Below the pieces are notes generated by a model. It ran no database searches and was not told the DNA's origin. It saw only the letters and a list, made by a program, of their open reading frames with translations. A DNA stretch of 64,000 bases from Nitrospirales bacterium (GTDB taxonomy: Bacteria > Nitrospirota > Nitrospiria > Nitrospirales > UBA8639), in the NCBI GenBank assembly GCA_031315865.1, contig JALDRJ010000002.1:1462001-1526000 (forward strand), read 5' to 3'. The position numbers and the translations under genes are program-made. Below are positions 15,302 to 51,049 of this stretch, piece after piece. Position 1 is the stretch's first letter. The number at the start of each line of letters is the position of its first letter.

Positions 15302-15669
15302 AGGATTTTGTTGAACGATTCTTGCACTCGATAGCCCCTATAACCAACATCAATTCCTGAAATATCTAAAAACTTGTAGACTGTTCATAGCAGCTGGCTG
15401 GCCTGGTTTGTTCCTAGTGCCATCCTCCTAGACGTCTATACTTTGACCAGAGCTTTTTGAAGCTTACCCAACCATCTTGACCATTCTGCTAGATGAATCT
15501 GTTCCCCCTTTGCTCTAACCATTGCTCTCCGAGTGCTCCGTGTTCGCAGTGAAGGTAATTGTGGCTCCAAGATAAGGTTGTTCTCGTCACGTTGGCCTCG
15601 TTCGAACTTGATGGGAGGCATCCCTAGCAAAACCGTCGAATAAGAATACAGCAACAAAAGATTTGACCC
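15302..15669. repeat. Long direct repeat, right copy
   Basis: The second copy of the ~370 bp repeat, in the same orientation as 14001-14376. A minus-strand frame of 73 codons (15436-15657, MPPIKFERGQRDENN…) is open here but broken in the left copy, so I do not call it a gene. It could be the worn end of a former coding element. Confidence 0.88.
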
Positions 15670-18642: not shown

Positions 18643-18912
18643 AGGAGTTATATTAGAGCAAAACTTGACCATATAAAATTAAACGTTATTCGGTATTAAG
18701 TACTAATGACAATTAGGTCATAAAGTGACACCTCAGACGGAAGCTACCAAGAGCCGAAAAGAACTAGATGGGGTTCAATGAAGAAGATGTTGCTCAGGCA
18801 GCGACTAGGCTATTGGTAAATTAGCCAAAGCCCCAACTTCCGAAAACAGGTCTAAAACAGGTTTTGTGGGAAAGGGTCTACCGGCGGGGTGCGCGTAAGT
18901 GCTTGAAGAATA
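18643..18912. other. Intergenic stretch with left attachment flank
   Basis: No gene is visible. From 18840 the sequence is homologous to 50900-50973 next to the intact tRNA-Lys. It contains ACAGG at 18846 and 18857 (11-bp period). Confidence 0.6.
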
Positions 18913-18958
18913 TGGTGGGTCGTACAGGGATCGAACCTGTGGCCCGCTGATTAAGAGT
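18913..18958 (-). repeat. Partial tRNA-Lys, left attachment site of the island
   Basis: The 46 bp are identical to 50974-51019: CCA end, T arm, variable region and the 3' half of the anticodon stem-loop of tRNA-Lys. The 5' half is missing; the sequence departs right after TTAAGAGT. With the homologous flank the direct repeat is ~119 bp (18840-18958 versus 50900-51019). This is what integration of a tyrosine-recombinase element into the 3' end of a tRNA leaves behind. Confidence 0.92.
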
Positions 18959-25639: not shown

Positions 25640-25768
25640 ACAGACTCTCCAAGTTCATCAAGTTATTTATCGCCACAGGAAAATTGCCTACCCCCTCTTT
25701 CATATCGCTCTCATTTCACTGGAAAGCTAGTCAGCAGTATTAGACTATGTCATTTCCTGCTCTATGAC

Positions 25769-29133: not shown

Positions 29134-29522
29134 TATAGGTTGTTATATATTGTTTGCTGTTCATGATTCTCTTTTGACAAAGTGACTTATACTTCGGTAC
29201 ATCTTAAGGAAGAGAACCGGGTGCGATGATTGTACCGGCTCGCTTGTGTTTCTCAACAAGGAGGTGCTACCAGCAAACATTGATTTCATCTTTGTTGTCT
29301 CTGACCTCAGACGAGGTTGGTATTACTCACATTTAAAAATAGGAGGGCTTTCAATGAAAAGCTCACGAAACTTCCTTCCGCGTTCCTGCAGGGCGGTCGC
29401 TACCTCTCCCTCCTGATCAATCTTCCTCCCCACAGGATCCTCCAATCCGCTCACAACGTGGGGATCTTCAAACGAAAAATCCAAAAAATTCCTCCGTTGA
29501 AGATACCGATGCCGTTGATTCA

Positions 29523-29786
29523 TTGGCTAGAGGTAACCCCGAAAACTCCAATCGTTTTCTGACTGCGAAAGAAGCCGCTGACTTTCTGGGCTTCGCCGAG
29601 ATTACTCTGGCCATGTGGCGACATTATCGGAAGGGACCTCCCTATGTTCGAGTAAAACGACACATTCGATACAGTCTCAGGGATCTGGAGAACTACATGG
29701 CCGGCCGGTCCGCAGAGGGGGATGGGCCAGTGAAAGTTTTTCCTGATGCCAGTGCTACGGATTCTTCCAAAAAGAAAAGGATCTGA
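29523..29786 (+). CDS. AlpA/excisionase-type helix-turn-helix protein
   Basis: The protein contains a MerR-like HTH of the excisionase family: RFLTAKEAADFLGFAEITL followed by KGPPYVRVKRHIRYSLRDLENYM. The shown start is TTG 29523, giving 87 residues. The frame is open back to 29358 without ATG or GTG. A strong Shine-Dalgarno (AGGAGG) with ATG at 29354 lies one frame over and runs only 20 codons, so the true start is unclear or the gene has a frameshift near its 5' end. It lies between integrase and primase and could be the recombination directionality factor. Confidence 0.72.
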   Translation: MARGNPENSNRFLTAKEAADFLGFAEITLAMWRHYRKGPPYVRVKRHIRYSLRDLENYMAGRSAEGDGPVKVFPDASATDSSKKKRI

Positions 29787-29907: not shown

Positions 29908-31878
29908 ATGATGACCGTCAAGAAAAACACGAAACTCGACATTGCACTGACCCTCGCCGCCATGGGGTTCAAGATCTTCCCTATTCGTGAAGGTACGAAG
30001 AACAAGCCGCGCGTCCGCTGGGCGAGGGGCGGATCCAAGGAACGAGCGACCGACGATCCAGCAATAATCAGGGAATGGTGGACGAAGTGGCCGCAGGCCA
30101 ACATCGGCATTGCCACCGGTCCGTCGAACCTAGTGGTGCTGGATATTGACATGAAAGATGAACGGAATGGGGAAGAGGCCTTCGCTCTGCTTGAATTGCT
30201 CTACGAATCCCTGCCTGAGACGCGGCAGGTCAGAACGGCATCCGGTGGGCGCCACCTGTTCTTTTATCGATCTGTTCCGATCAAGAATCAGGTCAACTTC
30301 AACAGCCGCATGATTGGTGAGGGTATCGACCTCCGTGGTGACGGCGGCATGGTCGTGGCGCCAGGATCTGAGACGGAGAAGGGAATCTATACGTGGATCA
30401 ATCCAGAGCATCCCATAGCCCAAGCCCCCGAGTGGCTTGTTGAGTTATGCACTTCGAATGAGGGAGGAGGACAAGGAGTTGACCTTCGGCTCAACAGGAC
30501 GAGTGACGCTCAGCCTTTGGACCCAATCGTTCCCCTCGACGAGGAGCTGGCAATTGCGAGGACCATAGATTTTCTCAAATCGCATCCACCGGCTATACAG
30601 GGTGAGGGCGGAGATTTGCACACTTATAGGACCATATGCCAAGTCAAAGATTTCGGTATCTCCGAGTCGAAATGTCTTGAATTGCTGGTAAAGTACTGGA
30701 ACGACGGCTGCGAGCCACCTTGGGAAGTTCGAGATCTAAAGAAGAAGGTGAGCAGTGCCTACAGGTACGGCACGGAGCCCCCTGGCGTTCTCTCTCCGAT
30801 GGCGGACTTCGACAAAGTTGAGGATGGGGATGAGCAATCCGAAAAACATCCTTCTATACCACCTCGGTTCCTGACGACCTTGTTACTGAAGCATTTACCT
30901 TCCCTATCGTGGTTGATCGGGGGCTTGATCCCTGAGTCCAGCTTCGGCATGCTGGTCGGCGAGCCTGGCACGTTCAAATCATTCTTTGCCCTTCACGCTG
31001 CGCTTTGTGTGGCCAATGGGAGAGCGTGCTTCGGTCGCCCCGTCCGACAGGGCGACACCTTTTATCTTGCCGGCGAGAGTGCCTTCGGTTACCGCCTGCG
31101 AACGATGGCGTGGGAACAACACATCGGGTATTCCGTTTCCCAACCTCCCTTTTACCTGCAGGTCGGGGGATCACACTTGAATCAGGGTGGGGAAGTCAGA
31201 AAACTGGCTGAAGACATCCTGACCCTATCACGGAATCCGAAACTCATCATTATCGACACCGTGCAGGTTTACTTGTCCGGTAATGAAAATAGCCCGGACG
31301 ATATGGGATCATTTGTGAAAGCCTGTCTCTCACTTCGCGACTTGACCGGTGCTGCCGTGCTCGTCATCCATCACCTTGGCAAGGATGTCAGCAAGGGGGC
31401 TCGGGGGCACACCTCGCTCATCGGTGCGGCGGACTTTATCTTCAAGACCGTGAAGAAAGAATCATCGATCGAAGTTGTCTGCCAAAAGATGAAAGAAGCT
31501 GATGACCGCACTCGAATGTTCTTGGAACCACACGTTGTCACTGTTGACCCAGGAGGGGAGTTCCCAGACTCGTTGATCCTCAGAGAGGTTCAACGGCCGA
31601 TGGACGACGAGACGACTAGCATCCTCCGGCAGGCCAAGGAGTATGACGGCCGGGGTCAGGGCGTGTTCGTCAAGTCGGTTGAGGAGGACCTGAACATTCG
31701 AGATGCGTATCGCAAGGTCAAAAAGATGATCCCCGAAGGCAAGCACAATGCTATCGATTTCGAAGACGGGTCGCTATGGATCGAACCTGATCCAGACAAC
31801 CCACAGGGGGTTAAGACTATTCGCTATGAAAGGGATTTTGCAGAGACGGATGCAGACATCTCCGACCTGTTGGCGTGA
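29908..31878 (+). CDS. Prim-Pol / RepA-like helicase fusion replication protein
   Basis: GGAAGGAGG precedes ATG 29908 at a good distance. The 656-residue product starts with a bifunctional primase-polymerase domain (ALTLAAMGFKIFPIREGTKN … LVVLDIDMKDERNGEEAF … RTASGGRHLFF … GEGIDLRGDGGMVVAPGS). A helical linker (about 225-290) and a RecA-type AAA domain follow (GMLVGEPGTFKSFFALHAAL P-loop; KLIIIDTVQVYLSGNENSPDD; VLVIHHLGKDVSKGARGHTSL), then a small C-terminal domain. This is the replication module of many integrated elements and phage satellites; it suggests the excised circle can replicate. Confidence 0.88.
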   Translation: MMTVKKNTKLDIALTLAAMGFKIFPIREGTKNKPRVRWARGGSKERATDDPAIIREWWTKWPQANIGIATGPSNLVVLDIDMKDERNGEEAFALLELLYESLPETRQVRTASGGRHLFFYRSVPIKNQVNFNSRMIGEGIDLRGDGGMVVAPGSETEKGIYTWINPEHPIAQAPEWLVELCTSNEGGGQGVDLRLNRTSDAQPLDPIVPLDEELAIARTIDFLKSHPPAIQGEGGDLHTYRTICQVKDFGISESKCLELLVKYWNDGCEPPWEVRDLKKKVSSAYRYGTEPPGVLSPMADFDKVEDGDEQSEKHPSIPPRFLTTLLLKHLPSLSWLIGGLIPESSFGMLVGEPGTFKSFFALHAALCVANGRACFGRPVRQGDTFYLAGESAFGYRLRTMAWEQHIGYSVSQPPFYLQVGGSHLNQGGEVRKLAEDILTLSRNPKLIIIDTVQVYLSGNENSPDDMGSFVKACLSLRDLTGAAVLVIHHLGKDVSKGARGHTSLIGAADFIFKTVKKESSIEVVCQKMKEADDRTRMFLEPHVVTVDPGGEFPDSLILREVQRPMDDETTSILRQAKEYDGRGQGVFVKSVEEDLNIRDAYRKVKKMIPEGKHNAIDFEDGSLWIEPDPDNPQGVKTIRYERDFAETDADISDLLA

Positions 31879-32605
31879 ACACCTACTTCTCAGGCGCTGA
31901 TCTCAGTTCTAATGCGGAAATGCTAGAAATAGCAGATCGGGCGGATTCCATCTGTCAGATTTCGTCTGAAATCCTAACCGATTCAAGGGCTTACGCCTCT
32001 TCAGATCGAATATGGTTTCATGGGGCCAAAGTGGATTTCGGATTTCAGCCTATATATGCAGCGAAATCCGAAATCCACCTCGCCGGAAAGTGATTCAGAT
32101 ATCTGAAAACTGAGAGCGATAGAAGTTGAAACGTCTCTGGTCTGGTCGGACCTTCCTCTATTCTACCCGGATCGGCCACATCGGACTTTAGGCATCCCGC
32201 CCTGTCCCAGGCATCTGTTCTATCGCCTGGAATCCACTGGGGCCGATCTGGCTGAGATTCGGAGCTATCATTTTAGACAGTTGCCTGCAACCTACGTAAT
32301 GAGGCCACCTCTGGGCAGTTCTTTTAGACGAAAGTAATAAACGCGTTACCAAAAGTAAGCGCACTCCCATGTACGGTTGGCAAACGCGGATGGGTCTCGC
32401 GCGTGCGGGGACTTCAGGCCCTCAGCGTTTTAAAACGTGTGCAATTTGAATCAGGTTCTTCAGGAGCCTTCTTTCTGCTAATGCTCGACGACATTTTCTC
32501 ATAAGGACATGAGGGATGGGGTGGCTCCCCCACGACCAACAATCGTCCCCTGTCCAACGGTGAAAACAGATTTAACGGATGCAGATGAATAGTGGAATCT
32601 GAAAT
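31879..32605. other. 727-bp region with palindromes
   Basis: I see no gene. It holds a perfect hairpin (32031-32078) and a 16-bp word (32593-32608) that recurs at 46386-46401. The frame at 31875-32093 runs through the hairpin and is not protein-like. Confidence 0.55.
32031..32078. repeat. Perfect 16-bp-arm inverted repeat
   Basis: GTGGATTTCGGATTTC (32031-32046) pairs exactly with GAAATCCGAAATCCAC (32063-32078) around a 16-base loop. The left arm plus loop (29 bp) recurs at 46355-46383. Confidence 0.85.
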
Positions 32606-34030: not shown

Positions 34031-34564
34031 TTAGAGCAGAAAAAAATTAAAACTCCCAATTTCATGGTAAGCCGAATCATTTGATTGTACAGGTACTAAT
34101 GATGAGGTAACAAATTGTTTTGTTCGGCGTCCATAAAATATGAGTGGAAGTATCGTGGCGAGCCAAAGTGCGAAAAAGAATAACCCCACGCCTACGGCCA
34201 GGTCTGATTTATTAAACCCTAACTGCGTCTTGCTCCCCAAAACAAGGGCCCATACTGAAAGACCAATAAAAAATCTATTGAGCCGATTTATAAGCAATAG
34301 TTTACGAACTCGCCGAAAGAAAGTTGCAAAAACTTCGCTAGGAATCTGCCATAATTGACTAATTGGGTACGATCCGCTCTGTCCCCAGATTAATTTGCCA
34401 TTTTTCGGGTTGCAAGGCGGACTAAGCCAAGTTCCGTCCCCCACTGGTATGAACCCGATGCCATATCGTACATAAGATGCAAGCCATGCTTTTACTGGTT
34501 TTATTTGACCACTCTTGAAAGAATCCGTTTTCGTTGCTTTAAGTAACTCCGCGCTCTTTGTCAT
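34031..34564 (-). CDS. Membrane protein, probable N-terminal part of a frameshifted gene
   Basis: The 177-residue product begins MTKSAELLKATKTDSFKSGQ with a ~90-residue cytoplasmic part, then two membrane helices (RFFIGLSVWALVLG and VGVGLFFFALWLATILPLIF). It ends SFNFFLL right at the T-run (34040-34046) where the next frame takes over with a third helix. No family is recognised. It may be one gene with 33705-34010, split by a one-base difference. Confidence 0.55.
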   Translation of the reverse strand: MTKSAELLKATKTDSFKSGQIKPVKAWLASYVRYGIGFIPVGDGTWLSPPCNPKNGKLIWGQSGSYPISQLWQIPSEVFATFFRRVRKLLLINRLNRFFIGLSVWALVLGSKTQLGFNKSDLAVGVGLFFFALWLATILPLIFYGRRTKQFVTSSLVPVQSNDSAYHEIGSFNFFLL

Positions 34565-34657: not shown

Positions 34658-35551
34658 TTACTTTTCTTTATGAGGAATTACGAGATCACCCATTTTATAG
34701 GGCTTTTCGAGGTAGTTGGGGGCATCGCGTTCATGTGGGGATCTAATAAAAAATTTTTCATTAATAGTTACTCCCTCAGCTTTTAATTGAATTTTACCTT
34801 CGGAATACCATGGATCAGAATCCCCAAATGTGAATTTTTTCAATTGAACAACTTCGATCGTAAATTCAACAAATTCATCTTTGTTGAGGAGGGGGCACTC
34901 AAGATGCAAAAAGAGGTCGCTATTGTCGTGAGCAAACCATTGATTCCATAGAATCTCCTTGTCATAAGTGCAGTTTGCACTCTCCGACTCTTTTCGTTTG
35001 ATCCTTAGTATTAATACAGTACCCGGTCTCCGTAAATATTCAAAACCAGTAACCAGCCTCTTGGATGTTTTTAAAAAGGAGACCCTACCATTTAAGTTTT
35101 TTATAGGTTTGAACTTTTCGTTTCTTATCAAAATTTTCACTGGGTCATTAACGGCATACATTATGTCTTTGTCGCCCTTATACCCTCCTAAAACTTTTGG
35201 CGGAATCCCTTTGCTAAAAAAAAGACGTGTATTTAATGTAGCAACTCTATACCATTCCGGACACTTCTCTGGTTTGTATATTAAATCTGAATTAGTGAGC
35301 GTCGGAAACGTACTACATGCCGACAGCTTATCCCAACGATTTGTGGGCCTCTCACCACGCACCTCATATTGAAGTTCAGGTTCTACAATATTCATAGGAG
35401 CATTGTACTCTCTTTTTGATTTTGAACCCAACGGATCCAGGTCCTCCATATAGTGGTCTACAAAAAATCCCACAACTGAAGTAGCAATAGCACCTGCTAG
35501 TAATATGACCATACGGCTCGCGCCAGGCGTTTTTTCTTCAGGTTCATTCAT
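34658..35551 (-). CDS. Membrane-anchored hypothetical protein
   Basis: The 297-residue protein has one N-terminal membrane helix (MVILLAGAIATSVVGFFVDH). A long polar domain follows with four spread cysteines (SACSTF, PEKCPEW, SANCTYD, LECPLL) and β-rich character (LILRIKRKESE, VEFTIEVVQLKKF). No family is recognised. It sits in the block of minus-strand genes between the membrane pair and two zinc-ribbon genes, and may be part of that set. Confidence 0.55.
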   Translation of the reverse strand: MNEPEEKTPGASRMVILLAGAIATSVVGFFVDHYMEDLDPLGSKSKREYNAPMNIVEPELQYEVRGERPTNRWDKLSACSTFPTLTNSDLIYKPEKCPEWYRVATLNTRLFFSKGIPPKVLGGYKGDKDIMYAVNDPVKILIRNEKFKPIKNLNGRVSFLKTSKRLVTGFEYLRRPGTVLILRIKRKESESANCTYDKEILWNQWFAHDNSDLFLHLECPLLNKDEFVEFTIEVVQLKKFTFGDSDPWYSEGKIQLKAEGVTINEKFFIRSPHERDAPNYLEKPYKMGDLVIPHKEK

Positions 35552-38525: not shown

Positions 38526-39578
38526 ATGTCATTCAAGATATTTTTATTATCAATTGCATTTATTATTTCTGGTGGATCTCTTTTTGCGGATACATTCAGA
38601 AAAAATTGGCTATTAATGGGTATTGCCGTAGTTATCGCCACTCTAAGTACATATTATTTATTTGATGCTATATATGAAGATGTAATCGGAAAATCCAAAA
38701 AGAACGAATATAAAATAGCCGAAATTTCTGAGGAAATTTCGAGACTTTCCAACAAACCGAATAAGACAGGAAGTATAGAAAAATCTTCACTTTCCGACCA
38801 ACAAATTAAAAAGAAAAGTCTAGAAAAATCCTTTGAGAGGATCTGGGAAAACCCAAAAGAAAATTTGTTTGAAAAGTGGAATGAAGATTTAGCTAGTAAA
38901 GCCATGAAGGAATGGATGGCTGTAAGTGATTTCAACGATGCTAGATATGATATTGACGAGGATGGTACCTACGAGATCTTATCTCATGTAGATAGTTTTT
39001 GGCCCTTAGATTTACCATCAGGGAAGGTTGTCATAGGGATTGGTTTTATAATGGGACAGTCCTGCGAAGCTTGTATGGGGGAGGTAAACATTGTAAAGTT
39101 TACTAATAATAACAATGGGTATTGGGGCGTACGTACTCATAAGACTTTCTTGGCTGGTGATAGGGGGTATCCTCCAAAACAAATGCGTGTTTTGAAAATC
39201 GGTTCCGATAATTATGGAGTTTTTTTAGAGCATAAGTTTTTCCTTAGAGGAGGTTGGTATGAAACTGGGCGACTATTTGCAGAAATTAATGGGAATTACA
39301 AAGAAGTATTTAAATATTTCAAGGTGGCAGCTGGTCTCTTAACTGGTGAAAGATATCGATATTCTAAGATAAGTTTTGACCCGGAAAAAGGGAAGGATTA
39401 TTTTGATATCATAGTTAGAAGTAAGGATTTCTTTCTCAAAGAAGAGATAGAGGATAGAGAAATATTGGATTCTACCTATGCTCAAAAATTTTCTCAGCTT
39501 GATGAAAGTGAAATAGAAAAGGAGGTTTATAAATTTAACGGCCGCGAATATATATCTACAACTGTAAGTCTCTCCTAG
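38526..39578 (+). CDS. Membrane-anchored hypothetical protein
   Basis: The 350-residue protein has two N-terminal membrane helices (KIFLLSIAFIISGGSLFA and NWLLMGIAVVIATLSTYYLF). A coiled-coil-like segment follows (AEISEEISRLSNKPNK), then a soluble domain with a short acidic loop (DARYDIDEDGTYEIL), which resembles an EF-hand-like or dockerin-like acidic loop. GQSCEACMGEV lies in the middle. No family is recognised. It is the only plus-strand gene of the block and has very AT-rich codon use. Confidence 0.55.
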   Translation: MSFKIFLLSIAFIISGGSLFADTFRKNWLLMGIAVVIATLSTYYLFDAIYEDVIGKSKKNEYKIAEISEEISRLSNKPNKTGSIEKSSLSDQQIKKKSLEKSFERIWENPKENLFEKWNEDLASKAMKEWMAVSDFNDARYDIDEDGTYEILSHVDSFWPLDLPSGKVVIGIGFIMGQSCEACMGEVNIVKFTNNNNGYWGVRTHKTFLAGDRGYPPKQMRVLKIGSDNYGVFLEHKFFLRGGWYETGRLFAEINGNYKEVFKYFKVAAGLLTGERYRYSKISFDPEKGKDYFDIIVRSKDFFLKEEIEDREILDSTYAQKFSQLDESEIEKEVYKFNGREYISTTVSLS

Positions 39579-39725: not shown

Positions 39726-42700
39726 TTACGTCTTTTCCTCAAGTAATCTGTCCATTGCTTGCTCTAGATTTAACTCTAATTCCGTCATTCTTTCTTGAAA
39801 GGCCATGGCTTCTTTTGATCTGCGGATTCTCCCAATTTTTTCAGCATCTTTGACCAAGGAACGCTCACCTATAGCTTGCCTCGTGCGTTCACGTGTTGCT
39901 CCCTTCAGAAAGTTTGAAAATAGTTGCTTGATACCGGTATGCACCATTTGTATTTCAGAAACAACTTGTGCCTGGGTCAGAATTTTTTCTCTCATGGAAA
40001 GACGCTGGCCAAGATTGAGCCCTGGAGGCATTGACTTCTTCTTGGTATAGAGTTGATCCAATCTTAACTGTTCCCTGACCAATGCTTGGGCGATGTTTCG
40101 CGAGTGAGACAGGTCAAGCCCGAGATTACGATGTAATGCCTTATTCAGCCCCTTCCTATGAGACAATTCTGAGAGATGGCCTTTTGTGCCTAATTGAAGT
40201 TTAGAGCTACTTTTCAAGTCAGCTGTTTGAAGTCCCGTTTCATCTATAAATATCGACAAGTTCTTTTGATTATCTCGAACAAAGGACAACATAGCTGTTT
40301 CCAAAGGTGATTCACGCTTTTGCTTTAAAACATCTTGCACCCTGCGAAAGTATTCTCGCTCTTCCTTTGACAACTCACGGCCCGTATTGAGCATTTGTCG
40401 TCGATGAACATTCTTGCTCTCTTCAATATGAACATCCTTTACTTTGTAGCTAGATGCTTTAAGGCGTTTTCCAGCTTCCAAACCCTTAAAAAGGCTAAAT
40501 AGGTTGCCTTCTTGACCAAACTGCTGACGGTTTCTGGCTTCCTCGGTCGCTAAAGACCTTGTGTAGTCTACAGCTTGGTCAAAATTTGTTCTGCTCGAGG
40601 TTCTTATATCTTTGCCATAATCAAGAGGCTGATCTGAGTGGGCAAGTCGTTTGGCCCTCGGTTTGTCGGCTTCGTTTTTGGTTCTTTCAATTTCTAGATC
40701 ATCATGACCACGACCGGATTCAGTTTTATGGACTGCTGTCGGGCGTTCTACACGAATAGTCATGTCATTGCGGTAATGGGTTTCCTGATAATCGCTCAAT
40801 TGTGAAATAGGATCCCTTGTCAACGCTTCAAGAACTTTCCTTGACAATCCATGCTCACTTTCATCCAGCCGTTTACCCATTCTATCTCTCTGGGCAAGCC
40901 CCTGAGCAGAATGTTCTTCTACATGTCCTATTTCTCCACGGCCAGGAACTGTCATGGCCTTTAACAGTCCATTAACCATGGGACCGAAGTTCTGATATTG
41001 CGGTCTTTGAATAGCTTCAATAATTTCTTTGAGCTTTTGTGCAAACTCAAAACGTAACAGCAACCCACTCTCAATTTGTTGTTCTCGCTGATACTGACGA
41101 CTCAAATTCGTTAAGTCTCGCTCCTTTTTTGCTAGGTCCTTTAGGTGTTGCTCAAGTCGCTGTTGCTCCTGTGTGAGGGTCATGTGTTCCGCGATCATTT
41201 CTTTATCACGACGCTTTGTTTTGATTTGTTCTTGTCTTAGTTCTGATAGCTGTTGGTTAAGCGTGTGTTTCTGCTGTTGGGCTTGCTCCTGTTGTTGGGT
41301 CAGAACCTTTTTTTTGTCTGTGCAATCACGGATATGGTTTTGGAGTTGTCCCTTTTCGTGAGTGAGGACTTTCTGACGCCGGTTCAAGACCTTGGTCTGC
41401 TGCCACAATCTCTGTTTTTTTTGGGTAAGCTCTTTTTGACGCTGGGCAGATGCTTTAATATGCTGCTGAACTTGCCGTTTTTTCTGGGCGAGCACTTTCT
41501 GTTGTTGGGTAAGTACTTTGACCTGTCGTTGGACTTGGCGATGTTGTTGTTGAATACCTTTTTGTTGACGAATTAGCCTGGCTTTGAGTTCTTGAACTCT
41601 ATTTTGTTCCTTGTTAAGCGATTGTCGCTGTTTAGCGATTGATTCATGTTTTTTCGTGGCTCGTTGCTGTTCTTGAAGTGACACCTCTGGGTCTCGCGCA
41701 AAGGCCTTGATTTGGTTCTGAGCGCGACGGTGCTCTCTGGTGAGAGTTTTTTGCTGTTTGGAGAGGACATTTAGTTGACGTTGGACTCGATTCACCTCGG
41801 CAGTGACAGCTCTATACCTTTGAGCAATAGCTTTAACCTCGCCTTGAACTTGTCGCCTTTTTTGTTTGAGGACATCTTGCTGTTGAGTGAGTGATTTAGT
41901 CTGCTGCTGAGCACGTTGTCGTTCTATAGAGACAGACTGTTGGCATTGAGTCAACGTGTTAGTCTTCTGCCCATTCTGATGCTGCTCCTGTGTCAAACCC
42001 TTCTCTTCTTGCGCAAAAGTCTTAGTCTGTTGCAGTGCCTGTTTCAGTGCTCGCGACAATTCTTTTAGCTGGGGTTTCAGTTCCTTAATAAGACGTTCTA
42101 CCTGGTGTCGTTTCTGAGTCAGGGTCTCTTGGCGTTTGGTTAATGTGTGCGTCTGTTTCTCCATCTGACGCCGTTCACGGGTTAACTTGTCTTTGCGCTT
42201 TGCAAGTGTCTGCAATTGCTGCTGAGAGCGACTCTGATCATGAATTAGTGATCGCTGTCGGGCAGCCAGAACTTGAGCCTGGTTTGACTTCTGCTGAAAT
42301 TCCTGGGCTATCTGGTCTCGATTTCTCCGTGGTGTTTTGGACTGCTCCAGACGCTCCCGCCCTCCCTGAGTAAGAATTTTCGTTTGTTGAGTGACTGACG
42401 ACGTTCGTATGTCCCTGTGCTTCTGACCTTGCGCACTAACCCGATCGTGTTCTGATTGAGCTTGTAGGTGCTCACGAGATCGAGAGTTGTGCTGATCGGG
42501 TTGCTGGTCCTGGGTAAAGACTGACTGCACTTGGTCTTCCGGTAAATTGGTTTGCCCTCTTCCTTGTGCAATTTCGTCTCGACGAGCGCCCTGTGGTGCT
42601 GGTGATTGCTCTAAAGTATTATGTTGTTCCCTGGCTATGCGCTCATCAAGGTCTATTTTGGCTGTGACGTGTTGCTCATGTACGAGGCGTAGATTTTGTA

Positions 42701-42875
42701 TATTATCAGCGACTCTGGATAATCGATCGAAAAGATTCTTTTCTGTCTGCTGGATATCCTGGTGTAGTTGGGCAATGATGTTGGGACGCTTTATATTCTG
42801 CTGCCCTGAATCAGGATTTTTCTGTCGTTCTTTGGCAAGTTCCTGGTGACTTGCTCTTAGTTTTCGGTCCAGCAT
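39726..42875 (-). CDS. 1049-residue Gln-rich coiled-coil protein made of 21-residue repeats
   Basis: Residues ~200-600 are a chain of 21-residue units (three heptads), for example VQRQVKVLTQQQKVLAQKKRQ followed directly by VQQHIKASAQRQKELTQKKQ, then LWQQTKVLNRRQKVLTHEKG. This predicts a long continuous rod. Flanking parts are polar. The C-terminal ~450 residues (LSRKVLEALTRDPISQLSDY … RRSKEAMAFQERM) are helical and unfamiliar. No enzymatic motif is seen. The gene lies between the zinc-ribbon pair and the VirD4-like ATPase. A scaffold or DNA-bridging role would fit, but this is a guess. Confidence 0.7.
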   Translation of the reverse strand: MLDRKLRASHQELAKERQKNPDSGQQNIKRPNIIAQLHQDIQQTEKNLFDRLSRVADNIQNLRLVHEQHVTAKIDLDERIAREQHNTLEQSPAPQGARRDEIAQGRGQTNLPEDQVQSVFTQDQQPDQHNSRSREHLQAQSEHDRVSAQGQKHRDIRTSSVTQQTKILTQGGRERLEQSKTPRRNRDQIAQEFQQKSNQAQVLAARQRSLIHDQSRSQQQLQTLAKRKDKLTRERRQMEKQTHTLTKRQETLTQKRHQVERLIKELKPQLKELSRALKQALQQTKTFAQEEKGLTQEQHQNGQKTNTLTQCQQSVSIERQRAQQQTKSLTQQQDVLKQKRRQVQGEVKAIAQRYRAVTAEVNRVQRQLNVLSKQQKTLTREHRRAQNQIKAFARDPEVSLQEQQRATKKHESIAKQRQSLNKEQNRVQELKARLIRQQKGIQQQHRQVQRQVKVLTQQQKVLAQKKRQVQQHIKASAQRQKELTQKKQRLWQQTKVLNRRQKVLTHEKGQLQNHIRDCTDKKKVLTQQQEQAQQQKHTLNQQLSELRQEQIKTKRRDKEMIAEHMTLTQEQQRLEQHLKDLAKKERDLTNLSRQYQREQQIESGLLLRFEFAQKLKEIIEAIQRPQYQNFGPMVNGLLKAMTVPGRGEIGHVEEHSAQGLAQRDRMGKRLDESEHGLSRKVLEALTRDPISQLSDYQETHYRNDMTIRVERPTAVHKTESGRGHDDLEIERTKNEADKPRAKRLAHSDQPLDYGKDIRTSSRTNFDQAVDYTRSLATEEARNRQQFGQEGNLFSLFKGLEAGKRLKASSYKVKDVHIEESKNVHRRQMLNTGRELSKEEREYFRRVQDVLKQKRESPLETAMLSFVRDNQKNLSIFIDETGLQTADLKSSSKLQLGTKGHLSELSHRKGLNKALHRNLGLDLSHSRNIAQALVREQLRLDQLYTKKKSMPPGLNLGQRLSMREKILTQAQVVSEIQMVHTGIKQLFSNFLKGATRERTRQAIGERSLVKDAEKIGRIRRSKEAMAFQERMTELELNLEQAMDRLLEEKT

Positions 42876-43079
42876 TTTATGCCTTTGACTCGCAAGATCA
42901 TTAGTTATAAAGGCATGAGTGTTAAATTTGAATACTACATGTGGAGACGATGCCTACGATTAGAATGCAGATTGCATATCAGCGGAAACATGTTTGAGAC
43001 AATGACTATAACCTTCTACAGTTGTCAGACAAAACATCGTAATTAGGCAAGGACATTTTGAGAGCAAATCACCCGCGGT

Positions 43080-43409
43080 CTATTCCTCAAAGAGAGTACA
43101 ATCTCCATTGGCGTTGGCGCGTGCACATAAAATGTAGATACGCCTTTTTTCACCGGAAATAGGGTCTATGGCTCTCCTATTTTCCTTCGTCGTCCAACGT
43201 GCGCACCACGGATAGTTTATTGGTTCATAATCAAATTCTTCCTCACGATCGAACCGCTGTTGTTCCAACAAAGCCTTTTTATTTTGTTCCTCTTCCCATT
43301 TCACCACCTCTTCCAGTATTTCTGGGGTATGGTAGTCGTTATGACGAAAAGGCTTGACAGGCGTACGTTCTCGAAAGTGACGACAATTTCTACATATTGC
43401 AATATCCAT
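43080..43409 (-). CDS. Small CxxCRHF cysteine-rich protein
   Basis: The 109-residue protein starts MDIAICRNCRHFRERTPVKP and later has YPWCARW, YILCARANANGDCTLFEE. The order CxxCRHF, C, C, DCxxF parallels the second half of the 260-residue zinc-ribbon protein, so it is probably a stand-alone version of that metal-binding domain. It is 106 bp downstream of the VirD4-like ATPase gene. Confidence 0.6.
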   Translation of the reverse strand: MDIAICRNCRHFRERTPVKPFRHNDYHTPEILEEVVKWEEEQNKKALLEQQRFDREEEFDYEPINYPWCARWTTKENRRAIDPISGEKRRIYILCARANANGDCTLFEE

Positions 43410-43515
43410 TCGCTCTTTTTCTTTCTTATGATTCTTCTGAATTCGTGAGACCCGTTTCTCCTCAATTTATGGATGTGAACAGACAAGTGGTGCAATGCTT
43501 TGTTAGGAATGGCCA

Positions 43516-45183
43516 CTATGTTTCGGTACTGGATTTAACTCCTTTTCTTAATGACGTATTACGATTGAGGGCTAGATTGGGTCCCTTATAGTTTTTTCCC
43601 CTCACATGGACAAACCACGTTTGAGGTCTCTCAACAAGCGCACTGAGAGAACCGACTACGACCGCTTGACCTCGCGACAGCGTCTGCAGAACCACGCGGG
43701 TAGGGAGGTCTTTTTTATCTTTGATTTCACTTTTGACATTTTGGCTTACACCATCTTTCGAATATGTCGCGTCGAATGTTTTAAAAAGTATTTCACTTTC
43801 TCCTACCAATTTTGAGGCCAAGTCAGCAGTTTCAGGATCTCCGACTTGCATGAAGATTTTTGCAGCCATATTCGAGACAATTCCCTGCCACGCATCTTCG
43901 AGTCCAGAGTTTTTCAGCATATGGATACTCTGAGTTGCGACAAGGCCCATACAGCCAAATTGTCGCATTAGCGAAAAAAAATTACTATCTCCAATACTCT
44001 CCCCTTTCAATTCCGTAGCCACATCTGAATATTCATCTGCAAGAAACAGGAGAGGTCTTTCTTTGTTTTGAAGGTCCGATCTTTCAAAACGAGTGAGCAC
44101 GTGCTGCTGAAACATCACTTTAATTACGGTACAAAGAATTTTAGCAATTGCGAGATTCCGCTTCGATACACTAACGAGTACAAATTTACCATTTTCGATG
44201 ATTTCATCGTATAAACTCAGTTGCCTGCGAGAAGGAGGGATCTCGTCGGAAAATACATCGAATTTTCTGGATCTAAATAGTCCATAGCATTGATCCATAA
44301 ATGATTTGAGTATGGGTTTATCTTTTTCATTTTCTAAAAATCGATTGAGTGTACTATTACACAATCGAAATTGTTCCAATGCATCTTCATTAAAGGTACT
44401 GGAGAGGGATCTTGCCAAGTCCAATGCTAGCTGGAGGTTTTCTTCCTCTTTAGACTCATTACCAGGTGACGGCGAATAACCCAAGAAAAGGGATGCCAAA
44501 TTTTGTAAGGTTGGACGTGTTTTCAGTTCTTCTTGCAAAAGCTCTAGCAGCGAGAGACCTGCACCAAAGAGTTTCCCAAGTTCATTAAGCCAAAATGGTT
44601 CTCGAGACCCAATTCCGGCGCTCTTTGCTGCCATGGCTAATGCTTTTCCAAGAGCATCTGGATCTAGGAAGGAGTGGATGAGGTTACGTTTCTCTCCATG
44701 CTCCTTCATAAAAGACTCGTTGATGATAATTAGATCCTTTCGTCTCCCAACCTTAGAGAATTTATTAACGATATCTCCTACTAATGCGCTTTTGGGATCC
44801 AGGAGCAGACCTCCAAATTTCTTGGTCTTTGAAGATTGTTCAAATGCTAGAATTTGGTCGAGAAGATGCATCATTAAGAATGTTTTCCCACAGCCCGGGA
44901 CTCCAAATATGCCATAACTCTGGCAAAGTCCCTGATCCTTGATATAGATTTGACTAGGGGCTTCCCCTAAAGAGTATTGCATCTTTTCCTGATCTATCCC
45001 TGTACCGCTATAGTTTCGTGGTGCTCGAGCTTGGGCAGGATGAATTCTAGCTGGCGGCCGAGATCGAATAATGACTTTTGGTGGTTTGGTTTTTGAGGGG
45101 AGGGAGCGGATTAAGCATAATTCGCTACCCACTTGAATTCGACCTTTTACTTTAACTTTTCTACTCTTGAATTGAATCGACAT
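43516..45183 (-). CDS. VirD4/TraG/TraD-like coupling ATPase
   Basis: The 555-residue protein has the P-loop GVPGCGKT (94-101) in SYGIFGVPGCGKTFLMMHLL, LLLDPKSALVGD after it, Walker B LLFLADEYSDVA in the C-terminal half, and the TraG/TraD-type motif GLVATQSIHML. These are features of type IV coupling ATPases that pump DNA or bind relaxosomes. No N-terminal membrane helices are visible, unlike most VirD4 proteins; some mobilisable elements and HerA/FtsK-like defence ATPases share this. No relaxase or mating-pair genes are recognisable in the window. Confidence 0.8.
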   Translation of the reverse strand: MSIQFKSRKVKVKGRIQVGSELCLIRSLPSKTKPPKVIIRSRPPARIHPAQARAPRNYSGTGIDQEKMQYSLGEAPSQIYIKDQGLCQSYGIFGVPGCGKTFLMMHLLDQILAFEQSSKTKKFGGLLLDPKSALVGDIVNKFSKVGRRKDLIIINESFMKEHGEKRNLIHSFLDPDALGKALAMAAKSAGIGSREPFWLNELGKLFGAGLSLLELLQEELKTRPTLQNLASLFLGYSPSPGNESKEEENLQLALDLARSLSSTFNEDALEQFRLCNSTLNRFLENEKDKPILKSFMDQCYGLFRSRKFDVFSDEIPPSRRQLSLYDEIIENGKFVLVSVSKRNLAIAKILCTVIKVMFQQHVLTRFERSDLQNKERPLLFLADEYSDVATELKGESIGDSNFFSLMRQFGCMGLVATQSIHMLKNSGLEDAWQGIVSNMAAKIFMQVGDPETADLASKLVGESEILFKTFDATYSKDGVSQNVKSEIKDKKDLPTRVVLQTLSRGQAVVVGSLSALVERPQTWFVHVRGKNYKGPNLALNRNTSLRKGVKSSTET

Positions 45184-46110
45184 ATTTTTTTCATTACATG
45201 GTCTTGAATCTATATGCTACCCAATCTCATAAAAAATATATCTTATGAACTTATGACCATTTTTTACAATTTCATGCTCATTTATTATTCCCGTTACACC
45301 TCTTACGGCAAAAGATTTTGACAAACTTCATCAATTTGTCAAGCAATTATGTGAGGGTAATCAAGTTTAGGAGCAGCTGACTAAAGATCGGTGGATCTAT
45401 GGCAGAGAAGACAAACGGTTTCAGCGGCTTGTGCGACCCGTGTCCGACGTGAAACCTGTTATAGACCTGTTACCGAGTAAAAACTAAGAAATGAGACAAT
45501 TGATTTGAAAGAATAGGATGTAAAGGCAAGATAGTGTATTTCAGCAGACCAAATACCAGTTCTCTATTTTCCTAACTCTCTCTCCACGTCCTTCAACACC
45601 CGGCTCAACCTCACGCCCGACGCCTCCGACAGCTTGCGCATGTTGATCTGGCTCATGTTCCGCTCGTCCCGCTCCACGTCCCCCACGTAAGTCCGATGGA
45701 GGTCCGCTCACTTGGCGTCAGCCACATGTTCGCCTCTGTTTGGCGGGGGGTGCTTTCTCCGTGAGTGTAGTCGGAGGGAGCTCCACCGACATTTCGAAAG
45801 GCAAGCCTGGATCCTGTGGTATGACCGATGGATCAGAGAGGAACTTCAGAGAACGGCGGAGTCGTCCTACGAAAATCAGGTGCCGCTCATGGTGGCCAAG
45901 CTCCTGGTGAGGCCACAGAGCTAGGGTGGTTATCCTCAGATCCCCTTCGTTCCTATTTTTCTCTGTAAAGCTTCAATCTGGCGTCAGCTTTTTTAAGCCG
46001 GTGGCCGATAATAGAATCATAGTACGTATTATTAAGTACGTAATATTTGAGTCGATAATTCTGATCAGCTCATGGCTCGGTGGTGAGCATATATAAAGGA
46101 GGGAACGAAG
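45184..46110. other. Degenerate region between ATPase and small hypothetical gene
   Basis: Includes an inverse ACAGG pair (CCTGT at 45455 and 45466, 11-bp period), whose surroundings (GAAACCTGTT…GACCTGTTACCG) match the tRNA-Lys attachment flank, and the XRE remnant at 45564-45728. A plus frame at 45712-45924 is open but has no credible start signal. Confidence 0.55.
45564..45728 (-). pseudogene. Remnant of an XRE-type helix-turn-helix regulator
   Basis: The minus strand encodes ADLHRTYVGDVERDERNMSQ and INMRKLSEASGVRLSRVLKD up to a natural stop, the C-terminal half of an XRE HTH (usually …RTYVGDVERGERN…). A TGA lies just before it and the sequence upstream no longer resembles the family. It is a truncated regulator. 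Confidence 0.7.
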
Positions 46111-46314: not shown

Positions 46315-46354
46315 GCGCTCTGGATCATCTGGAGGAGGTGTTCGAAATGAAGAA

Positions 46355-46401
46355 GTGGATTTCGGATTTCAGCCTATATATGCGATGGAATCTGAAATCT
46401 A
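46355..46401. repeat. Chimeric hairpin, right border of the AT-rich block
   Basis: Bases 46355-46383 equal the left arm and loop of the hairpin at 32031. Bases 46386-46401 equal the word at 32593-32608. The second arm is therefore imperfect. It looks like a junction formed from the two sites near 32 kb. Confidence 0.7.
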
Positions 46402-46478: not shown

Positions 46479-47783
46479 TTATCTTTTAATGATGGGATCA
46501 TGTTTACTATCCTTCTCTAAAACATGCACCCCAAGTAATCTTCTTGAGTTGACCGCATCATCTATCCGATCCCATTTTCTTTGGTTTTCTGAATAGAATT
46601 TCCAATAATCTAAAAGCAGTTCATCAATCTTTCTGTCTAGGTTCTGTAAACCGACTGGATCATTACAAAATGAATATTGGTTTCCCCATCCCTTCATGAC
46701 GTTATTTGCCACACTCAACGTTTCTATTAAGGTCAACTTCTTTTTTAGCAGATGCTTTGGTTGATCCATTGCTACCTTACTTTTGGTCAGAATTTCACTA
46801 ACACTATGTAATAGTCTTTCTTTCGATTTCGGGTTTGGTCTGATTTCACCTGGACGGATCTCACAACCCAAAAAATCAAATCCACTCTTGATGTATCCCT
46901 GCTCTGCTTTGTCCTTGTCTTTAAATGGATCATAAGCGCTTAAGCCAAATTCGGCTAGGATTCGTTTTCCACTTTCGAATGCGGCGACAACCTTTCTCTT
47001 ATTGGGTCCTAGGATAAGAAAATCGTCTATATATCTGAGACATATTACCCCACGATCATTTAATTTACTGTCAAATTCTTCTAATAAAATATTCCCCATT
47101 ATTGGTGAGAGACAGCATCCCTGAGCAACTCCTACTTCATAGATGGGGAAGGCATCAGCTTGTTTCCCCAATTCGTCAAGGTTCTCTAATTCGGTTTGAA
47201 CTGCTTCCTGTATTAAGTCGTTGAACTTCTGATCGGTTATAACACTCTTAATCTTCTCGAGAACTATGTTTTTGGGTACTTTGGTAAAAAACCCTTCAAT
47301 ATCAGAGCAAATAAAGTACTTTGCCCCATTTCTTATGGAGTTGTAAGCGGCTTTTACTGCTCCAGGAACTCCTAATCCTTTTCCCTTGATTCCTCCAAAA
47401 CTTGTAGGAATTTTATAATAGGGGTCTAATGCCTTTTCATCCTGTAGGACATTGAGAATAGCTCTCTGAACAATTCGGCTTTCAATCGTGGATATAACAA
47501 GAGGGCGGGGAGCTTTCCTCGGTCGTGGGATTGGGACACCGATTGATGGTGGAAAAGTAAATTTCTCTTGCCGAAGGAGGCGATTTATGCGGTTGAGATT
47601 GGTATCTGCCTTTTGTTGAAATAAATCAACTTCATCACGTGTTTGCTTACACTTCGAAGCACGACCGTTCTCATATACAGTAGTCCACGCACTTCTTAAA
47701 TTTTTCGGACCATGGACTTTTGCATATAGAGATTTGAGCTTAATTTTTTTGCCTTTGCTGAGCTCCCACTGGCAAACCTGAGC
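46479..47783 (-). CDS. Reverse transcriptase without standard start codon
   Basis: The frame is open for 434 residues, from just after a TGA at 47784-47786 to the stop at 46479, with no ATG or GTG in its first 200 codons; the first conventional start is TTG 47171, deep inside the catalytic domain. RT motifs are complete: RPLVISTIESRIVQRAILNV, ICSDIEGFFTKVP (motif 3), VAQGCCLSPIMGNILL (motif 4) and CLRYIDDFLIL (YIDD, motif 5), then a helical C-terminal part. It is not a retron RT by eye (no NAXXH/VTG seen) and has no maturase or endonuclease domain. Its 5' end abuts the duplicated cassette, so it is probably truncated there. Confidence 0.75.
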   Translation of the reverse strand, partial: AQVCQWELSKGKKIKLKSLYAKVHGPKNLRSAWTTVYENGRASKCKQTRDEVDLFQQKADTNLNRINRLLRQEKFTFPPSIGVPIPRPRKAPRPLVISTIESRIVQRAILNVLQDEKALDPYYKIPTSFGGIKGKGLGVPGAVKAAYNSIRNGAKYFICSDIEGFFTKVPKNIVLEKIKSVITDQKFNDLIQEAVQTELENLDELGKQADAFPIYEVGVAQGCCLSPIMGNILLEEFDSKLNDRGVICLRYIDDFLILGPNKRKVVAAFESGKRILAEFGLSAYDPFKDKDKAEQGYIKSGFDFLGCEIRPGEIRPNPKSKERLLHSVSEILTKSKVAMDQPKHLLKKKLTLIETLSVANNVMKGWGNQYSFCNDPVGLQNLDRKIDELLLDYWKFYSENQRKWDRIDDAVNSRRLLGVHVLEKDSKHDPIIKR

Positions 47784-47801: not shown

Positions 47802-48011
47802 TCAGACACCAGTGGGGGTTTCAGCATGTGGCGGTGTTGCCCCATGTGTACTCACCCAACCGCCCTCCACTCGTGGAGAGTCAGTGCATCCTCTACTTGC
47901 CGCGGCACCTGGAGACGGCCCGCTGAGAAGGGATGCCTGGGCTAAAGCAAGTAAAACAGAGAACACAAATGTGACGGATAGGAAGTGACCCAAGCTCGCA
48001 CGTTTTTGCAT
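47802..48011 (-). CDS. Small secreted protein, 3'-truncated copy
   Basis: The product starts with a signal peptide (MQKRASLGHFLSVTFVFSVL, then LALAQA). It continues through the 131-bp repeat (SLLSGPSPGAAASRGCTD … THGATPPHAETPT) and stops two codons after it. The proper C-terminal part is present in the other copy upstream. ATG 48011 lies 10 nt after the stop of that copy. Confidence 0.5.
   Translation of the reverse strand: MQKRASLGHFLSVTFVFSVLLALAQASLLSGPSPGAAASRGCTDSPRVEGGWVSTHGATPPHAETPTGV
47810..47940. repeat. 131-bp direct repeat, copy 1
   Basis: Identical to 48171-48301; the unit spacing is 361 bp. It forms the middle part of the small secreted-protein gene. Confidence 0.93.
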
Positions 48012-48021: not shown

Positions 48022-48301
48022 TCACTGGGTCTTCCTCCAGTTTACCTTTTTGGGGACCACTTTCAAGTCCGCCACAAGCCCTGCCTCTGCCTTCAAATAA
48101 ATGCTGTCTACCGTCCAGTGATATTTCAAAGCTCCGGTGATATTTAGCACAGCCTGGCAAAGGCTGCATTCAGTGGGGGTTTCAGCATGTGGCGGTGTTG
48201 CCCCATGTGTACTCACCCAACCGCCCTCCACTCGTGGAGAGTCAGTGCATCCTCTACTTGCCGCGGCACCTGGAGACGGCCCGCTGAGAAGGGATGCCTG
48301 G
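48022..48301 (-). pseudogene. Small secreted protein, 5'-truncated copy
   Basis: The frame enters with repeat copy 2 and continues with ECSLCQAVLNITGALKYHWT and VDSIYLKAEAGLVADLKVVP to the stop (RKTQ). The signal peptide is missing; the first ATG in frame is at 48231. Joining the signal peptide of the downstream copy, one repeat and this C-terminus gives one continuous 117-residue exported protein with a CxxC. No family is recognised. Confidence 0.5.
48171..48301. repeat. 131-bp direct repeat, copy 2
   Basis: Exact duplicate of 47810-47940 in the same orientation. Confidence 0.93.
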
Positions 48302-48452: not shown

Positions 48453-50666
48453 TCAGTTGGAGAGAGTAAACTGTTTTTTCTGATTCTCAAGAAAGAGATT
48501 TACTCTTTCTCGTGAGCTGTAATTAGGGTCTGTTATTAACTTATCACTTAGATCACTAAGAATTCCTTTCATTCTTCCTTTATCTTTTGCTTGATGTTCA
48601 TTAATAAAACTTCGAACTGAATTAATAACTTCATCAGGTAGGCTGTGAGAGATGTTAACTCCTAATAGGTTAGGGAAAATATTCTGGTAGACCTCTTTTA
48701 TGACCTCAGTATGAGGAGCCAATGAAATATAATTGTAGAGAAAATCTGGACGCATGTAACAGCTCACTGAATATTTGTTTGAAAAGACCTGACAAACAGT
48801 CCTATGTGTTACTTTGTCACTTGATAGCCACCAAGTTCGGTAGCCTGACCAATTTTGGTGGCTCATTTCCCTATTCTTTTCCCTGAGTGCAAAAATAGTC
48901 AAAATAAGTTTTGCATCGTTTGAAGCTCTATGTTTATCCCTTTTTTCTTGCTCGAGTGCCGTTGTTAACTGGGTTAGTTCAGTTTTGTCGATATTAATGC
49001 CAGTGCTTTCTAAAGGAACGAATTCCACACCGAAATTTTCCTGTAAACACAACAGCAAATCCCTGTTAAGGTTGGCTAGGGTTGGGTTACAGAATTTGTC
49101 TATAAAATCATTAAAGGTGGAAATATTATTTTTTAGTTTTGAATAAAAATACGCCCTGATCAAGATTTCCTTGATGTAAATAATGGTTATATCATCGTCA
49201 TATAATTCTTCACTGTCTTTGAATTCTTCTTCATAATTATTAATAATTTTCTTAATGTGAGCAGCAAGCTCATTTAGTATTGTTTCATTAATTCGAAGCT
49301 TTACCCCTGCGGCCTTAGCTCCACTGAGTAGGTTCCAATATCGTCTATTCTGTTCATCAAGACATATTTCAGATAAAGCGGGAATTAATATAGAAGTACA
49401 TACATACACATCTAGTTTTGATGCCATTTGTGTAAAAAAGAGTGAGACTTTTGGCTCACATTGGAGCAAAAATAGCAGCATGTAGGTATTTGCTAGGCAT
49501 TTAAGATATTCTTTTTGTTCGGTTGTCCCATGGTACACGAGATTGCGAATTGTCAGTAACAGAGCCTTTTTAACTGATTGCTTATTCTTCAAGATTACCC
49601 GACTTTCATCTACAACCTCTGAAATCGTTCCGTAAAGATCCTTTTCAAATGCCTCCTTGCTATGCCCAGTACTTACTAGGTCTGAAAATTCTAACCCTTG
49701 CCTATAAAATAATTTATTTAGAGTCTCATTGATCAGGGAAACTGCATCCTGGATTCTTACATCATCTGTCCTTAAATACTTCTTAAGCTCTGGGACAATG
49801 CTCTCACGAAAGGATTTATGAAGTGCCAAATCTCTAAGATTTTTATCAGTTAGTTCTTTGCGTGTTTCATAAGGGAGACAATATCCATTGTCTTTTGTGT
49901 GATACTTTATTTTTCTTTCCGGTTTGGAAGAAAGAATTTGCAGTCTATCATCTATTTGGGAAGTCAGAACTTTAGGTTGGAATTTTAAATATTTCCCAAT
50001 TTCCTTGATAATTTCCTCTCGATTTTTGAGGATGTTTTCGTCTGGATCAGTTCCCTCCAAAGCATAAAGTATCAAGGTGTCAGCCAGAACTTGGTCTAAA
50101 TTTAATGCATCCTTTCTCATATCCCATTGCTGCCTAAGAAAAACATAGAGGCGCGGATCAGAGACAAGATCACCTATTTCGAACCCTGCCCCAGGTTTTT
50201 GAAACTCATGCAAATAGTTGTTTTTAAAGACCTCATAAGCATTCACTGTTGCAGGTGAATTGTTGACATTAGCGCCAAACCATAAAAGGTCATAAACTTG
50301 CATTGGTTTCTTATGTTTATCCGCGAGTTCATCAATTAATTTATCTTTGTCTTTGATCTCTTGGTTTGTAACGTATGTGAAGCGATCAAATTTAATATTG
50401 TTGTCCTTTAACAGTTTTACGGACCCTGAGGCTTTTCCTTCCCCATCTTTCTCAATCGAGAACTGATATATTACCTTTTGATTCCCTTCTTGATTGAAAA
50501 CATGGTCAAGTCCATCTATGCCTTTGTCTCGTATCCCCCCAGCCGGAACAAAGGAATACCCCAATCTTCCTGAAAGAAAGTTCTTAGCAAAATCTTCAAA
50601 TACGAACCCATCGTCGATATGTCCTAGAGCACACATACAAGCTTTGGGATCTACACCGTTCATCAA
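48453..50666 (-). CDS. Large protein with restriction-endonuclease-like N-terminus
   Basis: The 737-residue protein begins with a region resembling a restriction-fold domain: FEDFAKNFLSGRLGYSFVPA (E24), GGIRDKGIDGLDHVF (D51), VIYQFSIEKD (QxS where E/QxK is usual). A long helical middle part follows. Near 600-660, a stretch with DAKLILTIFALREKN and GYRTWWLSSDKVTHR … YMRPDFLYNYISLAP is reminiscent of a PIN-like domain. Both assignments are by eye. It lies at the right border of the island, alone, and is AT-rich. A nuclease-based defence protein is the best guess. Confidence 0.6.
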   Translation of the reverse strand: MMNGVDPKACMCALGHIDDGFVFEDFAKNFLSGRLGYSFVPAGGIRDKGIDGLDHVFNQEGNQKVIYQFSIEKDGEGKASGSVKLLKDNNIKFDRFTYVTNQEIKDKDKLIDELADKHKKPMQVYDLLWFGANVNNSPATVNAYEVFKNNYLHEFQKPGAGFEIGDLVSDPRLYVFLRQQWDMRKDALNLDQVLADTLILYALEGTDPDENILKNREEIIKEIGKYLKFQPKVLTSQIDDRLQILSSKPERKIKYHTKDNGYCLPYETRKELTDKNLRDLALHKSFRESIVPELKKYLRTDDVRIQDAVSLINETLNKLFYRQGLEFSDLVSTGHSKEAFEKDLYGTISEVVDESRVILKNKQSVKKALLLTIRNLVYHGTTEQKEYLKCLANTYMLLFLLQCEPKVSLFFTQMASKLDVYVCTSILIPALSEICLDEQNRRYWNLLSGAKAAGVKLRINETILNELAAHIKKIINNYEEEFKDSEELYDDDITIIYIKEILIRAYFYSKLKNNISTFNDFIDKFCNPTLANLNRDLLLCLQENFGVEFVPLESTGINIDKTELTQLTTALEQEKRDKHRASNDAKLILTIFALREKNREMSHQNWSGYRTWWLSSDKVTHRTVCQVFSNKYSVSCYMRPDFLYNYISLAPHTEVIKEVYQNIFPNLLGVNISHSLPDEVINSVRSFINEHQAKDKGRMKGILSDLSDKLITDPNYSSRERVNLFLENQKKQFTLSN

Positions 50667-50973
50667 TTTGGTCCTTTAGAATAATAAAAAGGGTAGTTTT
50701 ATATTTTTAAAGAATATTTCATATTCTTTAGAAAATCCATGCCTTAATCCAAGAGTCATGGAATGGCCAATGTTTAGCTCAGGACTTTAAAGACAAGAAA
50801 TAGGAGGTTGATTACATTCATGACTGGGATGCCCTTCGAATACAACAAAGAGCTTTAAAGCATATATCAGAGTGGTGGGGCCCATGGGAGAGCTCGACGC
50901 CGGAAAACAGGTCTAAAACAGGTTTTATGGGAGGGGGGCTACGGGCGGAATCCGCGTAAGTGGTTGAAAAATA
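50667..50973. other. Right end of the island
   Basis: No gene. From 50900 it matches the left attachment flank (18840-18912), including ACAGG at 50907 and 50918. Confidence 0.6.
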
Positions 50974-51049
50974 TGGTGGGTCGTACAGGGATCGAACCTG
51001 TGGCCCGCTGATTAAGAGTCAGCTGCTCTACCAGCTGAGCTAACGACCC
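50974..51049 (-). tRNA. tRNA-Lys (anticodon CTT)
   Basis: 76 nt including encoded CCA. The cloverleaf is complete: acceptor GGGTCGT with ACGACCC, D arm GCTCAGCTGGTAGAGC, anticodon stem CTGA with loop CTCTTAA, T arm CAGGTTCGATCCCTG. The 3' part (50974-51019) recurs at 18913-18958, so this is the tRNA used by the island; the 5' half is unique here. Confidence 0.97.

Follow-up and report, generated by a model that had tools for sequence, protein, structure and literature searches.

What becomes of a conjugation-type DNA motor on a genomic island in which neither a relaxase nor a mating channel can be recognised? The question is raised by a 64,000-nt stretch (the window, to which all coordinates refer) from a Nitrospirales bacterium (UBA8639; GCA_031315865.1, contig JALDRJ010000002.1, 1,462,001–1,526,000 of the forward strand), where a 555-residue ATPase of the type IV coupling protein (T4CP) superfamily is encoded beside a small Cys/His protein with a CRHF motif (the CRHF protein) and a 1049-residue coiled-coil protein built of repeats (the coil protein), in a minus-strand block that also encodes zinc-ribbon and membrane proteins. 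An earlier note on this DNA had wavered between a DNA-processing or defence system and a degenerate mobilisation module; the coupling ATPase without a recognisable relaxase or secretion system proved real, and both alternatives still stand. Our preferred, if tentative, answer is that the ATPase is a repurposed cytosolic DNA motor with the T4CP fold and conjugative ancestors, now island cargo without a mating channel.

The open reading frames (ORFs) of the coil protein, the CRHF protein and the ATPase lie where the note had placed them, and the last of these matched three Pfam T4CP families (PF10412 TrwB_AAD_bind, 3.9e-12; PF12696 TraG-D_C, 1.1e-10; PF02534 T4SS-DNA_transf, 1.1e-7). Its Walker A (GVPGCGKT) and Walker B (LFLADEYSD) motifs are invariant columns in a 12-row alignment with distant relatives, which also served as input for AlphaFold2. 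In the resulting model (predicted TM-score, pTM, 0.67) the motor core has mostly a per-residue confidence (pLDDT) of 70–90, with low confidence for residues 1–75, 519–555 and portions of an all-alpha region, whose helices (residues 175–304) lie between Walker A and Walker B. The top match in the Protein Data Bank (PDB) was TrwBΔN70 (Foldseek 5.9e-12; VIA-align Z 22.5 over 368 residues at 4.1 Å, with about 13% identity to TrwB in the structural alignment), followed by DndH (Z 20.3), TdpA (19.0), Cag-beta (18.7), the DotL complex (18.5) and HerA (17.5). Since TrwBΔN70 outranks all of these, the ATPase is, by sequence and predicted fold, a T4CP-type motor. It shares with the coupling proteins TrwB (R388) and VirD4 the RecA-like motor, the inserted all-alpha region, both Walker motifs and the TraG-D_C domain, but differs in having no N-terminal transmembrane domain, in a genome without VirB4 and with at most 30% identity to any relative found. 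Hydropathy analysis gave no transmembrane segment (no window ≥1.6), no decayed transmembrane frame was seen in the upstream frames checked, and the N-terminus, where T4CPs usually have that domain, is basic and of low confidence in the model. The defence motors DndH, TdpA and HerA (of HerA-Sir2/DUF4297) belong to the same superfamily by fold (Z 15–20), but TrwB ranks higher and no nuclease or Sir2 partner adjoins the ATPase.

No close homologue of the ATPase was found in 98 relatives, 396 genomes of the phylum, phages or viral contigs; a first scan of genome contigs was empty, and a profile scan yielded 15 distant loci. Identity was 26% to relatives in plasmids and 23–30% in genomes. Where neighbours could be named (those of L020, L021, L023 and L025 were not identified), two relatives (L011, L017) have TrbI/VirB10 proteins nearby, one (L024) a VirB4-like TraG P-loop protein, and one (L022) adjoins MobA_MobL; others lie near annotated TraA and MobF relaxases, one is on a MOBF-typed plasmid, and those of Paraburkholderia (L018) and of pSU3 (Agarilytica) lie near a coiled-coil plus tyrosine-recombinase-like protein. 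Because these relatives, at ≤30% identity, occur within type IV secretion clusters or next to relaxases or tyrosine-recombinase-like proteins, the ancestry of the ATPase is, as judged from sequence, conjugative; its exact position in the tree is unsafe, since it has the longest branch (2.47 changes/site). Homologues in conjugation clusters with a relaxase, which the note had named as what would speak against its reading, thus exist for the ATPase superfamily but not for the block, as neither a close ATPase homologue nor any coil homologue was found.

The partners that a T4CP works with, a type IV secretion system (T4SS) and a relaxosome, were not detected. As the note had remarked, no relaxase or mating-pair gene is visible: relaxase families had no match in the scanned island ORFs, PF03432 and PF08751 had none genome-wide (MobA_MobL, Mob_Pre and Rep-type families were searched in the island ORFs only), VirB4 (TIGR00929) had none genome-wide, and PF12696 matched this ATPase alone in the genome. 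Among the scanned island ORFs there was also no second tyrosine-recombinase-like protein. These absences bear on a credible competing explanation, to which we give well under an even chance, that the block serves an integrative and mobilisable element (IME) as its mobilisation module, with the ATPase as its own coupling protein, a relaxase that is unrecognised or supplied by a helper, and a helper's channel. The island does carry a tyrosine integrase, an excisionase (Xis)-like helix-turn-helix (HTH) protein, a Prim-Pol gene and att-like repeats at tRNA-Lys, so that of the usual attributes of an IME the integrase and repeats are present and an own relaxase is absent from the scanned ORFs; moreover, the settings of the ATPase relatives described above are those of mobilisation. 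As for another attribute, an oriT that a helper recognises, the island offers 47-nt palindromic repeats, whose role as such would be conjectural. IMEs without mating-pair formation genes, IMEs without a relaxase, and the tyrosine-recombinase-like relaxases MpsA, MobK and TcpM are all on record (PMC5704250, PMC9299015), SGI1 with MpsA/MpsB being a genomic island without a classical relaxase (PMC9299015). SGI1, however, uses the coupling protein of its helper, whereas the island studied here has its own T4CP-like ATPase. Against mobilisation stand the lack of any relaxase candidate in the scanned island ORFs and of VirB4 in the host, an integrase of the standard Arm type, a coil protein in which neither a recombinase signature nor an HxH motif was recognised, and the missing transmembrane domain of the ATPase. 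That domain is reported to be essential for conjugation in VirD4-type T4CPs, although T4CPs without it can transfer their own plasmids (PMC7434980).

Coupling proteins with a comparable neighbour occur in pSU3 and L018: the T4CP gene is downstream of one for a protein with a coiled-coil-looking stretch, and in pSU3 no classical relaxase is annotated either, but the partner there has a tyrosine-recombinase domain at its end (PF00589, 7.7e-6 in L018 and a weak 0.017 in pSU3), which the coil protein of the window lacks. The two loci (L002:13035–16587, pSU3; L018:6606–11539) are candidates for mobilisation modules in their own right, in which an MpsA-like relaxase would be combined with a T4CP of the module itself.

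Could the coil protein itself be the unrecognised relaxase? This idea found no backing, as the protein has no Pfam match and no HxH motif; one stretch looks suggestive by eye (HRNLGLDLSH...LVREQLRLDQLY), but the protein scored −0.1 bits with the tyrosine-recombinase profile, below many of 500 shuffles. Its periodicity, on the other hand, was amply borne out: where 21-residue (63-bp) units over some 400 residues had been noted, we found 19 units (residues 191–589), with identities in residues 191–600 of 0.249, 0.253 and 0.259 at lags of 21, 42 and 63, compared with an all-lag mean of 0.106 and a maximum of 0.173 among 200 composition-preserving shuffles. In the gene, lags of 63, 126 and 189 gave 0.447–0.458 versus 0.28. 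The units have mean identities of 26% in protein and 44% in DNA, and Tandem Repeats Finder does not detect the array; being only 44% alike in DNA, it is old or under selection, with no recent expansion. One heptad position is strongly hydrophobic (88%) and a second weakly so, and this, with the richness in Q, K and R, suggests a coiled coil that is extended and packs weakly. Profile searches, which assigned the ATPase and the zinc-ribbon proteins, gave no Pfam family for either the coil or the CRHF protein, and for the coil protein no PADLOC or PHROG match but just a weak SMC_prok_B match to the coil. For its C-terminus, searches of plasmids, viral contigs and PDB sequences yielded no homologue, and a lone match in the phylum (E 6e-4), located in a frame interrupted by stops, was taken as chance. 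The structure prediction proposed in the note for this region (residues 601–1049, AlphaFold2 without alignment) gave helices only, at a pLDDT of 45, too low for a fold search.

Does the ATPase and coil half belong with the zinc-ribbon and membrane half of the block? The CRHF protein and residues 72–163 of the 260-residue double-zinc-ribbon protein have a Cys/His domain in common (score 59 versus 26 ± 4.8, reached by none of 500 shuffles), and the presence of this domain on both sides suggests, at the sequence level, that the two halves form one unit. A second CRHF-like copy in the 260-residue protein was not significant (97 of 500 shuffles reached it), so that we claim a single shared domain; elsewhere in the phylum, the domain gave only a stop-interrupted match (9.5e-4). 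The two halves are separated by a plus-strand gene for a 350-residue protein. We regard it as possible, though less likely than not, that the whole 33.7–45.2 kb block encodes a multi-gene system not described before, with a soluble conjugation-type motor, a repeat-built coil filament and CRHF, zinc-ribbon and membrane proteins acting together on intracellular DNA, in defence or processing, without relaxase or channel.

Alternatively, the block might be the remnant of a degenerate conjugative element that has lost its relaxase and channel genes, the ATPase and coil genes being decaying or neutral passengers. An orphan T4CP, the very long ATPase branch and a mosaic island with gene pieces (an XRE-HTH fragment at 45577–45700, a repeat-interrupted reverse transcriptase) would fit this, but the frames of the ATPase, CRHF, coil and zinc proteins are open at full length and the catalytic motifs are retained, and we consider such decay unlikely.

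If the motor has instead been repurposed, as we prefer, the ATPase would hexamerise on DNA and the ring would pump DNA in the cytosol at the expense of ATP, the coil protein may be the scaffold or receptor that takes it to DNA or to membrane-anchored and zinc-ribbon partners, the zinc and membrane proteins may serve as DNA-binding and anchoring partners, and the whole would be an intracellular DNA-processing system, probably of conflict or defence type. As neither a channel nor a nickase was detected, and as the remaining island cargo is defence-like (an NB-ARC/LCAT-like pair and a UG17-type reverse transcriptase), we rank this role slightly above mobilisation. Several observations weigh against it. 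Every sampled relative with a recognised neighbour is in a conjugation or mobilisation setting; none of the genes in the block is a known defence partner; the ATPase, CRHF and coil genes are spaced 106 and 204 bp apart, which leaves a tight operon unproven; and the searches gave no homologous block that could show a conserved neighbourhood of the kind that the note had looked to. The ATPase also matches the PADLOC model of Mad8 of the MADS system (mad8, 8.6e-14), with no mad match (mad1–mad7) in the other block proteins, but this was dropped as evidence of defence after a control with T4CPs from T4SS and relaxase loci: because conjugative T4CPs match the same model, the match is uninformative either way.

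Features of the island and of the minus-strand block (window coordinates)
Feature	Position	Strand	Evidence or remark
VirD4/TrwB-like (T4CP superfamily) ATPase, 555 aa	43516–45183	−	Pfam and AlphaFold2 model
CRHF Cys/His putative zinc-binding protein, 109 aa	43080–43409	−	no Pfam match
Coiled-coil protein, Q/K/R-rich, orphan, 1049 aa	39726–42875	−	
19 units of 21 residues (63 bp) in coil protein, residues 191–589	41109–42305	−	autocorrelation, shuffles, heptads
Membrane-anchored protein, 350 aa, no family	38526–39578	+	opposite strand
Double-zinc-ribbon protein with CRHF-type domain, 260 aa	37160–37942	−	DZR 1.7e-10
Double-zinc-ribbon protein, 481 aa	35660–37105	−	Zn_Ribbon_1 3.3e-10, DZR 8.8e-10
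Protein with one N-terminal transmembrane segment, 297 aa, no family	34658–35551	−	
Membrane protein, 177 aa, no family	34031–34564	−	
Protein with two hydrophobic segments, 101 aa	33705–34010	−	
47-nt palindromic direct repeat, left copy	32029–32075		16-nt perfect arms; flanks minus-strand block
47-nt palindromic direct repeat, right copy	46353–46399		89%
117-nt repeat, left copy	18842–18958		includes tRNA-Lys 3′ fragment; 91% identity to 50903–51019
117-nt repeat, right copy	50903–51019		overlaps 3′ half of tRNA-Lys (50974–51049)
NB-ARC (STAND) protein, 2100 aa, beside LCAT-like hydrolase	19337–27253	−	
Tyrosine integrase of island, standard Arm-type	27976–29133	+	PF00589 3e-10, Arm-DNA-bind_3 8.9e-9
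HTH_17 excisionase (Xis)-like frame	29358–29783	+	PF12728 9.7e-7
Prim-Pol + AAA_25 replication protein	29908–31878	+	PF09250 4.9e-41, PF13481 2.1e-37
Reverse transcriptase	46479–47783	−	nearest RT_UG17 (4.9e-44)
737-aa protein, no family	48453–50666	−	

The note had overlooked that all this lies in an island of ~32 kb (18842–51019), integrated at tRNA-Lys and ended by the 117-nt repeat, which carries genes for an integrase, an Xis-like HTH protein and a Prim-Pol protein and has a G+C content (GC) of 0.44 against 0.50–0.51 outside the island. Its order from the left is NB-ARC and LCAT-like hydrolase, integrase, HTH_17, Prim-Pol/AAA_25, minus-strand block, reverse transcriptase and 737-residue protein. 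The 47-nt repeats that flank the block are not a dispersed genomic repeat, occurring at these two genome sites only, which suggests that the block came in as one unit. Since GC differs between the integrase/Prim-Pol module (0.54) and the block (0.425), and the 47-nt repeats lie between them, the two probably arrived separately. This counts against a role of motor and coil in maintaining the island's Prim-Pol replicon by partition or anchoring, which we find improbable although a Prim-Pol/AAA replication gene is on the same island and the long coil weakly resembles SMC-type coils. Prim-Pol relatives were not seen among 60 related genomes. The integrase sits far from either island end, so the island is probably composite.

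As to other cargo, the NB-ARC/LCAT-like pair resembles an NLR-type defence pair, with no match in PADLOC. The reverse transcriptase gene has no obvious start codon, and its 5′ end adjoins one copy of a 131-nt repeat that is present twice in identical form (47810–47940, 48171–48301). By eye only, the N-terminus of the 737-residue protein (GIDGLDHVF...VIYQFSIEK) resembles a PD-(D/E)XK nuclease. The XRE-type HTH-looking frame fragment mentioned above (HRTYVGDVERDERNMSQINMRKLSEASGVRL, minus strand) is GC-rich debris in the interval between ATPase and reverse transcriptase. Outside the island, a 268-nt direct repeat (96%; 13991–14258 and 15292–15559), with two more repeats adjacent, lies near a Schlafen/AlbA_2 protein (15798–16937).

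The orphan soluble coupling-protein-like motor and its orphan, repeat-built coil neighbour are thus real and mildly unusual, and on present evidence not categorically new. Should the block be a mobilisation module after all, its relaxase must be of a so far unrecognised kind. If the motor is functional in the repurposed role that we favour, it would be a conjugation-type pump at work outside conjugation with an unrelated coiled-coil partner, and would show a way in which mobilisation genes can turn into systems that handle DNA inside the cell.

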